Shown piece after piece: positions 281-53,871 of a DNA stretch of 64,000 nucleotides (position 1 is its first letter; each line of letters opens with the position of its first letter). Below the pieces are notes generated by a model. That model was not told the origin of the DNA. It saw only the letters and a program-made list of their open reading frames with translations, and did no database searches. Both the position numbers and the translations under genes were made by a program. The stretch comes from Arctopsyche grandis (lineage: Eukaryota > Arthropoda > Insecta > Trichoptera > Hydropsychidae). The stretch covers positions 20,921,001 to 20,985,000 of the forward strand of contig NC_135364.1 of the NCBI RefSeq assembly GCF_051622035.1, in the 5' to 3' direction.

Positions 281-1463
281 TATTTCAAGTTTTCAAACAA
301 ATGTCATAATATTTTAATATCTCTAGCGAGCTGATTCTTTTTACGGATGATGTTCGATAGGTTTCTCATTTTCTGTTTATCATAAAATGATCTATTGTCA
401 TTGGGCCTGTTTCGGAATGCGTGTGAGGGGAGAATAATTGAGTAAGTGAACATTCAAATTCTAGATCTTCCTTCAAGACTAAAGAACGTACTGTTATTTA
501 ATTTGAATTTGTCTTTTTTCAAAAATATTCCATTACCAATACTTCAAAAACACGTTCCAACAAACGAATGTTAATTATGATGATATTTAAGAACGGGTTT
601 CTGGAATTCTTTAATTTTGAATAAAGGGTATCTGGAAATCACTGTGTATATCAAATTTATAGATTCTGAGGTAATTTACTCGAATTTTGTTTTTAAATAA
701 GAACCCTTTAGTAAGTTTAAGCAAGCCATATGCAAAAAAAGTTCTAGAATAATGTACCTACTAGCAAATACAAACTAAATATTAGATCTGGAGTTCTGGA
801 TACCGACTTCCTTTAACAATTTATTGCAGTGAATCAATCATGAAGATCCTACTATAACAGTTTAATAGCTTTTAGGTAAATCCGTATTGATATAATCTTT
901 AAAGAAAAATCATAAATAGTACGTATTGCATTTATAAAAATATTTTATTCATTAGAAATATGTATGTCATCGTATTTTAATACTAAATAAAAGAGTGCAG
1001 CTAATAAAAAATAGTTCGGATTATCCGTATCTCACTTCTGCATCAATTCATTCGGATAATCTAAAATACATATACCTGCCGTGCTTTCTTTTTGGAGATG
1101 AAATAATGTCTATCTTATGAATGTAATCAAAATTTTACAAAAACATTTTTGATTGTATGCGTTTGTTGTTAGCGTTGGTTCTGCAGTAGCTGTATCTTGG
1201 GTTGCGAATTTTGTTGATGTTGTATTTAGCAGTCGCCGTTGTATCACCGACTCAGCGGTATAGAGGCTTACTTTCAAATATAAAATGCTTATTTTATTAA
1301 AAATTTAAATTGCTTAATAATATAATGTACAAATCATTTAAGTAGCGTCCAGTTGGGGTCGACCCCATAAATAGACCACAATGAAAAAATATGAATGCGG
1401 CCTTGCATTGGCGATAACACCACATATTGTGTTCAGTCTTATCACTCGTGTCTCGGCATCGAC
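281..1463. other. 5' flank of the SMYD-like gene; nothing recognised
   Basis: AT-rich sequence with no convincing coding exon or repeat. It should contain the promoter and 5' UTR of the gene that starts near 1464, but I see no clear core promoter motif. An in-frame ATG at 1395 lies in this stretch, in a poorer initiation context. Confidence 0.4.
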
Positions 1464-17896
<16,433 letters not shown>

Positions 17897-18661: not shown

Positions 18662-18740
18662 ATGTATGAAGATTTTGATTGCCCTTTGAACTTATTGGAT
18701 TCCCACAAAGTTATATTGGGCGCCTGCATTGTTATACTCG
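18662..18740 (+). CDS. Opsin-like gene, exon 1
   Basis: ATG then 26 codons (MYEDFDCPLNLLDSHKVILG...) into TM1, ending CTCG|GTGAGT in phase 1. A competing ATG at 18666 stops after seven codons. Confidence 0.8.
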
Positions 18741-20779
18741 GTGAGTTTGATATACATACACTGTTATTTAAATCAAATATGAAATAATAATACAACAAGT
18801 GAAGAAGTTTTTAAATTAAATAGGTATCGGAGGTGTTCTTTTAAATGCTTGGGTAATGATAACATTTATTCATAGTCATTTGCTATCGTTCAAAAGTCAT
18901 TTGTTGGTGTTAAACTTGTGCACGGCCTGTCTAGCGAGAAATATTCTAGGAGGGTTTACTTTTGCCGGTCCATCTGCTCTGGCTGGACGGTCAGTATTTT
19001 TAAGATTATCAATTTTACAATTTTTTCTTATACGTTAAGTTAATATAGTGCTATGTAAAAAGGAATTAATTCTAATTGATCAGATCATTGTTCTGACGAT
19101 TGATCTTGAACTGCAATCAATAATGTACGACAAATGTGAATTATGTATGTATGGCAAATATGAATTTAAATTGACCTGTGTTTAGTGGTTCTTGACTTGA
19201 TCTGTAATATTATCAGGTCAAATTTAACATGATGTCATTGAACCATATTCAATTATGGCAGTATAAAAGGTACGAATTCTGATGAATATTTTTTATTATT
19301 AATTTTAGATGGATTTTTGGACAACAGTGCTGCAAATTATTTGCCTTTATGCAACAGCTTTTGGGAGTTTTCCAAATGATATCACTTGCTGTATTGTGTT
19401 TTGAAAGATTCTTAATAACTAAGAGGTTAAAAAGAGGTATTTTAAATGAAATATTCATAATATTACTATCGAATGTGTGTCTAATATTTTTATTTAAATG
19501 TGTGTATTGAGTTTTTTCATGCAAACGTTCCATTATTTTATTTAGAGAAACAGGATTTAAGCATAAAATTTTACATGGCGAGTATCGTTTTCTGTTGGAG
19601 TTATTCAATAACATTTTCAATACCTCCTCTGCTCCAATATGGTGATTTTGGATGTGATGCCAGTGGAACAACGTGTACATTAGAGTGGCGTTATAGAAAC
19701 ATTCGCCAAACAAGTTTCAATATCTTATTGGTTATTTTTGCCGGCATAATTCCAATTGTTTGCATGTATGTTGTATGAAATCAAATTTTTAATTTAAATT
19801 TATCATCAAAATATATTTTTGATCATTATGAATTTACTGAAATAGAGGTGTTTCATTGTGGAAATGCGTCAGGCTGAACAGAAGACAAAGACTGTCTGAT
19901 ACGCAGTGGGAGCAATGGTCGTTAACAAAGGTAACAGTTTCAAATTACACAACCTCTTTATTTCGTTTGGATAATAGAAAGACAACCACAGCTTTTGTTA
20001 AATATTTAACATGGAAATGAAAGGATTTTTCTATTTATTTATTTTTATTTTTAGAATACTTGCATTGTGGCTGTCACGATTTTAATATTTTGGCTACCAC
20101 AAGCTGTATTAGCATCATGGGTATCAATAACCAGTTGGTCTAAAGCTCTTCGATACTCAGGTCCTTCCTTTGCGATATCCATTTTAGCTCCTTTAGGAGC
20201 TGAGGTAATCAACATACATTCATTTTTTGGTTTTATCATAGATATATAATACATAGATGGGCCCTGATGCCTGCTTTTGGTCGGAGATCTTGTCGTCACT
20301 AACTGAGGGGTGCGGGGGGTTTAACTAGCGGAGAAGTTGGGAAAAAAAAGGTTTTTTTCCCTACGACGCAGCGGTCGTCGTTTTTTCCACCACTTCCCCG
20401 CTAGTTAAACCCCCCGCACCCCTCAGTTAGTGACGACAAGATCTCCGCAATATCTATGCAATATCGACCTTCCGACTTAGAAGTTAACTAGTTACTGAGA
20501 GAAAGTGTGCATGCGCCATGTATTTTGCATGCGCCAACAGGGAGACCGGCATAAAACGTGAGGGCGTATCTATGTATTATACATCTATGGGTTTTATGTA
20601 CGATTTTTAATATCTTTTTTTTTAATAATTTATAGGCTGCTACATTGATTCCAGTCTTATGTTACATGGCAGGTGAGCCTAGAATACGAACAGCTTTGTT
20701 GGGGCGTTGTAAAGAGAATTATGGAATTATAAAAAGAAGGAGAGAATCTTCAGGTTTTACAATGATTTCTGAAACTTAG
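18662..20779 (+). CDS. Opsin-like G-protein-coupled receptor lacking the retinal lysine
   Basis: Exons 18662-18740, 18824-18989, 19309-19436, 19546-19765, 19846-19930, 20055-20204 and 20636-20779 join in phase to 323 aa with seven membrane segments. Opsin features: a TM1 Asn (GVLLNAWVM), a TM3 Cys (C89 or C90) with C168 in ECL2 (CDASGTTCTLEW) for the disulfide, ERF at 114-116 in place of DRY, FWLPQAV in TM6, and TM7 ending PVLCY. Aligned on that Tyr as Tyr306 of bovine rhodopsin, the Schiff-base Lys296 position is Glu276. The TM2 Asp and the Asn of NPxxY are also replaced. The short loops and TSCT-like ECL2 suggest the RGR/peropsin side of the opsin family. It matches my recollection of the lepidopteran 'unclassified' opsin. 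It may not bind retinal by a Schiff base. Ligand and signalling are unknown. Confidence 0.88.
18824..18989 (+). CDS. Opsin-like gene, exon 2 (TM1-TM2)
   Basis: AAATAG|GTATCGG to GGACG|GTCAGT, entering in phase 1 and leaving in phase 2. Encodes the rest of TM1 and TM2 (LVLNLCTACLARN), where opsins have an Asp that is absent here. Confidence 0.87.
19309..19436 (+). CDS. Opsin-like gene, exon 3 (TM3)
   Basis: TTTTAG|ATGGATT to AAAGAG|GTATTT. Encodes WIFGQQCCKLFAF, then TM3 and ERFLITKR at its cytoplasmic end. Confidence 0.88.
19546..19765 (+). CDS. Opsin-like gene, exon 4 (TM4-ECL2-TM5)
   Basis: TTTAG|AGAAACAGG to TTTGCAT|GTATGT. Encodes TM4, the cysteine-bearing second extracellular loop and most of TM5. 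Confidence 0.88.
19846..19930 (+). CDS. Opsin-like gene, exon 5 (third intracellular loop)
   Basis: AAATAG|AGGTGTT to ACAAAG|GTAACA. A short basic loop (WKCVRLNRRQRLSDTQWEQW) leads towards TM6. Confidence 0.85.
20055..20204 (+). CDS. Opsin-like gene, exon 6 (TM6 and start of TM7)
   Basis: TTTTTAG|AATACTTGC to GCTGAG|GTAATC, fifty codons in phase 0. Encodes FWLPQAV and ends at Glu276, the residue aligned to the missing lysine. Confidence 0.87.
20237..20589. mobile_element. hAT-like MITE with 50-bp GC-rich hairpin in the last opsin intron
   Basis: Imperfect TIRs begin CATAGATATATAATACATAG at the left and CATAGATGTATAATACATAG (reversed) at the right. They are flanked by a perfect 8-bp duplication, GGTTTTAT (20229-20236 and 20590-20597). 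Inside, 20282-20331 and 20398-20447 are exact 50-bp inverted copies, very GC-rich (CTGAGGGGTGCGGGGGG). The 8-bp duplication suggests hAT. Confidence 0.85.
20636..20779 (+). CDS. Opsin-like gene, exon 7 (end of TM7, C-tail)
   Basis: TTATAG|GCTGCTAC to TAG, 47 codons plus stop. Encodes AATLIPVLCYMAGEPRIR and a short basic tail ending FTMISET. Confidence 0.87.
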   Translation, partial: AATLIPVLCYMAGEPRIRTALLGRCKENYGIIKRRRESSGFTMISET

Positions 20780-22715
20780 TGTTCAATTAAAAACTCGAAA
20801 ATTTATTAAGATTTGCTTGTGGTTAAAAATAAATAAAATGTTTTCAAATTAATTTTTATTTAATTGGATTTTTAATTTGAATTAATGTTTATTATTGGAA
20901 TATTTTAAAATATATTTATTGACATTTTCTGTTTCTAACTCATAATAACTACATATACCTAAGTTAGTTGTATTTTTTTTTAAAGAAAACTAATAAATCA
21001 CTAATAAAAAAATATTTTATTCACTTTGTACATACATTGACTAACAATATAAGTTATTTATATCGATGACATCACAGATGTCACAAAGGCCTGAAAAGTG
21101 TTACAATCTAAATTATTAGAAAAAAAATAGGCTCACTCTATTTACATATGTAGTTCTATTTTAAGAGAAGAAGTTAGAAAATTATTAAAAAGTATTCGCA
21201 CTTTTTTTGCAGAAATAATTAATTATTATAATTTAGAATATATCAAAACAAAATTTTATAAAACATTCTATTATTTACAAAATTTACTAAACCTTAATAA
21301 GTATAATGGCATCATATAATTTCTTATAAAATACTTTAAAATATATATATATAAGAAGAAAATTAGAATAAGAAATGAAGTAGAATATATATATTTGTAG
21401 AAATAAGAAGATTTTATTATTGTCAAAGTGATGATTTGATATCATAAGGAAATAAATAAATTTATTCATCATAAAAAAATGAAATTTTCTAGATCAATTC
21501 CACAAATGTTGTTTGTTTTTTTTTTCTTTTATAACGCTAAACGGGTCTCACATGGAATATATGTAGATGGATTCATTCCAATTGGCCCCATAAATTTAAT
21601 AATATTATATATTCATCAATTGGCACCATTAAAATTTATCCATGTGTAGTATTATGCATATATGTATGTATATAGTTTAATATTTTAAAATTCATATATA
21701 GAGATATGTATGACATGTGAGTATATCCGTGTTTGTATTTTTATATTATGAGGCATTACAAGCACAAGAAGAAACTTATTAAGTAAACTTATCTTATTTG
21801 GTCACTTAATTTAATGTAAAGTATATTTCTTCTCAGGTAACACAAATCACTTTTTTTAGAATAATGAATCTTTGTGAGAGATAAAAAGTGCTTATATTTA
21901 AATGAATGTATTATATATAGATTCATCCAAAATTTTACCGTGCGACTATGCATGTATAATTTAAAAGAGTTTGATTATTTTAATACTTGATTTTTGTTTT
22001 AAATATAATGATTATTATTGAAATTTTAGAAGTGCTTTAATAAAATTGTCTTTATATTTATTATATTTTAGCGTAGTTTATTTTGCATTTGAAGTACAAA
22101 ACTATTTTAATTAACAGCATGCTCAAATGTAAAGTATGAGAGATTTCAAAGAATATTGCCAATATCTTTATGATGAAGAGTCATAAATACTTATTGAATA
22201 TATATCCCATACAATTTTTTATATGTATATATTAATCGCAATTTTAATAATATGCCGTAAAAATTCGGTCCCGTTTCATTTCAAATTATACCTGTTGAAG
22301 GCACGAAGAGTAATGATACAGAAGACTATTATTTTCTAGTAAGTTTCTTTTTGGTGTAAAAAAAATAGCTACCCTATCAGAATCCTATACTTTGAGTATA
22401 CCTTTCATCTCTTTCAAACAACTTTTTGTCTTGGACGCTATCTTCAATCATGATTTTTCAGTCTTTGCATGAAATATAAATAGTATATTGAAATTAAAAT
22501 ATTAAATGATATACCCTCACATACAATATACATATACGAAAAAAACATTCAGATGCATAGATACTATGCATATCCGTACGCAGAATTATAGCGAGTGGTG
22601 CAAACATACCACTATAGCTCGACACCAGTGCATATTCATTATATTCATATGTGTTTACACTATTGTGGTTCATCATCACACACTGATTAATATTTATTCC
22701 AACGTCTGCAATTCA
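20780..22715. other. Intergenic region between convergent genes
   Basis: Very AT-rich. AATAAA at 20828-20833 and an overlapping one at 20832-20837 serve the opsin-like gene, and AATAAA on the - strand (22698-22693) the transporter. No other feature is recognised. Confidence 0.7.

Positions 22716-53871
<31,156 letters not shown>

Follow-up and report, generated by a model that had tools for sequence, protein, structure and literature searches.

An intact caddisfly gene that very probably encodes a gluopsin and carries no lysine at the retinal-binding position

Results

An intact opsin-fold gene in the window

We analyzed a stretch of 64,000 nucleotides from the genome of the caddisfly Arctopsyche grandis (C10:20921001-20985000; hereafter the window) and found in it an intact gene that very probably encodes a gluopsin, judging from a comparison with published motifs and text and from a weakly supported branch in a tree. 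Strictly defined, an opsin has lysine at position 296 (bovine rhodopsin numbering); in this protein Glu276 or Ala275 stands there instead. Glutamate in place of Lys296 is already in print, and this kind of protein has been known since 2022, when Guhmann, Porter and Bok gave the name gluopsins to a clade of 36 opsins among the arthropod chromopsins (PMC9368030).

The gene occupies 18662-20779 of the window on the + strand and has seven exons (Table 1). All six introns are of the GT...AG type, and the product is 323 aa long with one stop, at its end. This agrees with a reading made earlier from the letters alone (the sequence-only reading), which had described a clean, intron-bearing gene and not a pseudogene. 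Another combination of exon 2 and exon 3 ends is also open and gives a protein of 318 aa that lacks the WIFGQ stretch; since (R)WIFG, present in the 323-aa model, aligns with the loop that precedes the TM3 cysteine in opsins, we preferred that model.

Table 1. Exons of the gene and other features, in window coordinates unless a contig is named
Feature	Position	Strand	Content
Exon 1	18662-18740	+	Start codon; TM1 begins (MYEDFDCPLNLLDSHKVILGACIVIL, then the first base of the following codon)
Exon 2	18824-18989	+	TM1-TM2
Exon 3	19309-19436	+	TM3: Cys90 (=C110), Lys91 (=111), Phe93 (=113), ERF
Exon 4	19546-19765	+	TM4; extracellular loop 2 with Asp162 (=181) and Cys168 (=187); TM5
Exon 5	19846-19930	+	End of TM5 and intracellular loop 3
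Exon 6	20055-20204	+	TM6 (FWLP) and first part of TM7
Glu276 codon, GAG	20202-20204	+	Ends exon 6; in the better-supported register this is position 296 (7.43)
Exon 7	20636-20779	+	Remainder of TM7 (PVLCY, Arg294=314), C-terminal tail, stop
SET-domain gene	1395-2648	+	Pfam, 47.8 bits
MFS transporter exons	22906-24952	-	Pfam, 80.7 bits (larger piece) and 22.3 bits (smaller piece, below the cut-off)
Pteropsin-like gene	C5:14377491-14380736		Lysine kept
Pteropsin-like gene	C13:27793024-27796248		

A different last exon carrying the lysine had been raised in the sequence-only reading. We found none in the phase-0 frame after any AG before 20205-22499, in a scan that kept frames open for at least 15 aa with the pattern K-9x-Y; exons farther away, or lacking this pattern, lie outside its range. 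Three candidates came out of the scan, and by eye none of them resembled TM7. Restoration of the lysine by RNA editing can be ruled out by reasoning: A-to-I editing shifts A towards G and the genomic codon is already GAG, so a lysine codon could not be restored in this way. The codons AAG and GAG differ by one transition. The last intron also contains a palindromic element (20237-20589), whose 29-nt terminal inverted repeats (90%) enclose a 67-nt palindrome (94%); it looks like a small non-autonomous DNA transposon.

Residues kept and changed

The features characteristic of opsins are partly kept and partly changed relative to bovine rhodopsin. The cysteines of the opsin disulfide (C110 and C187), the ERF motif at 134-136, and FWLP with W265 and P267 are all present, whereas D83 in TM2 is replaced by Cys62, E113 (the vertebrate counterion) by Phe93, and E181 by Asp162. 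TM7 reads APLGAEAATLIPVLCYMAGEPRIR / SILAPLGAEAATLIPVLCYMAGEPRIR. Lysines of the 323-aa protein lie at 16, 50, 91, 120, 123, 126, 132, 204, 226, 256, 302 and 309; those closest to Glu276 are Lys256 and Lys302, 20 and 26 residues off, and there is none within 19. Lys91 takes position 111 (3.26), adjoining the TM3 cysteine, and by its position would be the likeliest substitute site for retinal near the extracellular end of the pocket. The sequence-only reading had been right about the kept motifs, the loss of the TM2 aspartate and the lack of a lysine nearby. It had also pointed to the loss of the NPxxY asparagine, and we too see this (PVLCY), but this change has been published as a family mark (PMC9368030) and is not peculiar to this gene.

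Kinship with opsins

Several comparisons place the protein with opsins. The Pfam 7tm_1 model matched residues 34-251 at 62.2 bits (cut-off 30.5), a stretch that does not reach TM7. In the PDB, 107 sequences matched at E ≤0.01, and within the best 60 of these the first 21 were opsins (E 1.5e-14 to 9.3e-10), followed by the histamine H3 receptor as the first non-opsin (9.3e-9); the best match to a non-opsin family that the sequence-only reading had allowed for did not appear. With phmmer, five opsins scored 43.5-76.1 bits, and seven receptors of other kinds from this genome scored 2.7-24.4. A pteropsin-like opsin encoded in the genome itself (C5:14.378 Mb) ranked first among those tried (76.1 bits), followed by peropsin (73.2), bovine rhodopsin (56.0), RGR (48.5) and retinochrome (43.5).

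A 13-row tree set the opsins apart from the seven other receptors with a support of 99/99. Within the opsins, the window protein grouped with three reference sequences (squid retinochrome, human RGR and human peropsin), which in the tree and in the alignments were entered by hand. Support for this group was 83/82, below the program's mark for firm support. Branches are long, among them the end branch of the window protein (2.13). In the PDB matches, the phmmer scores and the tree, the protein sides with opsins rather than with other receptors of the rhodopsin family, and we regard it as an opsin by descent. Its placement among the chromopsins is weakly suggested by the tree.

Which residue stands at position 296

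Two registers had been offered in the sequence-only reading: alignment on the terminal Tyr puts Glu276 at position 296, and alignment on Pro puts Ala275 there. We compared them in 36 MAFFT runs, made up of nine sequence sets in four modes each (16 multiple runs, and 20 pairwise runs with five opsins). Glu276 fell on 296 in 27 of the 36, namely in 15 of 16 multiple and 12 of 20 pairwise runs, the latter being all 12 with peropsin, RGR and the pteropsin-like gene of the genome (three of the five opsins). The pairwise runs with bovine rhodopsin gave Ala275 in four of four, and those with squid retinochrome were divided between Ala275 (two) and Pro272 (two). The one multiple run that gave Ala275 was a 13-row set; the alignments used for residue mapping and for the tree, which are of the same kinds, likewise gave Ala275.

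Scores over TM7 were divided along the same lines. The ungapped Glu register scored better than the gapped Ala275 register against peropsin (38 vs 1), RGR (12 vs -4) and the pteropsin-like gene (14 vs -1). Ala275 was the better choice against bovine rhodopsin (13 gapped and 10 ungapped vs 6 for Glu) and squid retinochrome (6 ungapped vs -5 for Glu). APLxA precedes the site in the window protein, as it does in the human peropsin sequence used in these comparisons.

In the Glu276 register, the spacing to Tyr at +10 (306) and Arg294 at +18 (314) is gapless, as in bovine rhodopsin, N302-P303 becomes Pro-Val so that PVLCY replaces NPxxY, and Pro272 stands at -4 (292). The gluopsin paper's own reading of Glu296, Pro292, PVxxY and Arg314 corresponds to this ungapped register (PMC9368030). 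On these alignments Glu276 is the better-supported occupant of 296, although the runs are not unanimous. In all three registers (Glu276, Ala275 and Pro272) the site is without lysine.

Genome and window context

We searched the genome (475,669,232 bases in 189 contigs), scoring the best candidates alone, and found no second copy of the gene among 18 matches at E ≤10. Seven of these were the gene's own pieces, and the other 11 were weak matches elsewhere (best 5.5e-5, 21-35% identity). Four of the 11, at C5:14.378-14.381 Mb and C13:27.79 Mb, fall in two genes that are apparently paralogues. We presume them to be pteropsin-like from the motif FGWG-Y--E-ANI. The C5 gene is followed by an open frame of 272 aa, which may be a long C-terminal tail.

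Elsewhere in the window lies a SET-domain gene, probably one of SMYD type; there are also MFS transporter exons (Table 1). Long simple repeats at 37202-37609 and 50429-51005 have open frames that read IYIYIY. Rfam gave no match across the window at gathering thresholds. A phage collection gave no match to the window gene, a result that means little where the gene is from an insect.

Discussion

The sequence-only reading had proposed a conserved gene of opsin fold in a non-canonical role. The intact gene, the opsin matches and the tree are in line with this, as are two published accounts (PMC9368030, PMC6698658), the first of which supplies the conservation. Lepidopteran unclassified opsins had rightly been suggested for comparison; that the group had been named gluopsins in 2022 was absent from the suggestion. 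Within the gluopsin clade, 33 of 36 sequences carry Glu296, and of the remainder two are fragments and one is misassembled; the clade is mainly from butterflies and dragonflies, and the carriers of Glu span different higher insect taxa (PMC9368030). Its authors state that the function of gluopsins is unknown and leave a list of possible roles open, with which the roles named in the sequence-only reading overlap (PMC9368030). Our literature search, conducted mostly at the level of listings, found no functional test of a gluopsin. The main text of a survey of caddisfly opsins (PMC11381090) contains none of the terms RGR, unclassified, UnRh, gluopsin, peropsin and lysine.

A second line of published work bears on where such a protein may act. 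Macias-Munoz et al. (2019) described a lepidopteran unclassified opsin, UnRh, that lacks the lysine, citing Kanost et al. (2016). UnRh is upregulated in Heliconius heads, and its protein is found in cone, primary pigment and secondary pigment cells, not in photoreceptor cells; it was proposed to be a retinochrome-like photoisomerase (PMC6698658), a suggestion restated in a 2026 review (PMC12942528). We read UnRh and the gluopsins as the same gene, because the gluopsin paper lists sequences of Manduca and Bombyx among its members (PMC9368030) and both descriptions are of opsins without the lysine. The window gene is probably an orthologue of lepidopteran UnRh.

We considered what a protein of this kind might do. 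It would form no Schiff base with retinal at the usual site, and with no covalent chromophore there it would therefore not be an ordinary photopigment. The role that we consider most likely, if only tentatively, is to bind or handle retinoid non-covalently in the support cells of the eye (cone and pigment cells), where the protein would support the supply of chromophore; retinoid handling without a Schiff base is favoured because the published location of UnRh is in support cells. In a more specific and rather doubtful version, retinoid is sensed or shuttled non-covalently by the gluopsin, in whose pocket Glu296 would act as an acid; the support cell would thereby monitor or supply chromophore through a receptor that is independent of light. 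The kept ERF and FWLP motifs could equally mean that signalling is retained, and they would suit the main rival, which ranks next and is possible: a light-independent chemoreceptor GPCR, as Drosophila opsins are for aristolochic acid. Chemoreception has been argued not to need the lysine (PMC9368030), although the derived state of NPxxY (PVxxY) speaks against such a receptor. By comparison, it is unlikely that another lysine binds retinal and makes the protein a photopigment or photoisomerase. Lys91, directly after the TM3 cysteine, would be the best candidate; the lysine of bovine rhodopsin can be moved without loss of activity (PMC9368030), and UnRh has been proposed as a photoisomerase (PMC6698658). 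Against this, inspection by eye in the gluopsin paper revealed no alternative lysine common to all gluopsins (PMC9368030), and with Phe at 113 the usual counterion is gone, though Asp at 181 stays.

Two further explanations concern what the gene is rather than what it does. That it encodes a rhodopsin-family receptor other than an opsin is suggested by the missing residue that defines opsins, but opsins rank above other GPCRs among the best 60 of 107 PDB matches, outscore the seven other receptors of the genome and, in the 13-row tree, form a branch with the window protein that has 99/99 support, so that we consider this explanation highly improbable. A pseudogene or an assembly error might account for the several changed residues that opsins conserve; an open frame across seven exons with proper splice sites, and the occurrence of this Glu in 33 sequences that come from various higher taxa of insects (PMC9368030), make this a barely credible explanation. 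The gene stands as an intact, apparently single-copy addition to the opsins that have lost their defining residue, and a clean insect gene model helps to test whether gluopsins handle retinoid, sense chemicals or signal.

Comparison with known opsins

Compared by published rules, the window protein shows no difference from gluopsins at the level of motifs. Most gluopsins have PVxxY or PLxxY replacing NPxxY (7.53), and Pro292 and Arg314 are marks of chromopsins (PMC9368030); we find Glu at 296 in the better register, PVLCY, Pro272 at -4 and Arg294 at +18, the Pro292 match being valid in the Glu register alone. By description, UnRh is similar as well: it is an opsin without the lysine, and it groups with squid retinochrome and an RGR-like opsin (PMC6698658). 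RGR-opsins, retinochromes and peropsins are the partners of the window protein in the tree, but they have Lys296 where Glu (or Ala) stands in the present protein. NPxxY is also retained in peropsins (PMC9368030). The C5 pteropsin-like opsin of the same genome, unlike the window protein, keeps both the lysine and NPxxY (VIPALVAKSSICYNPIIY).
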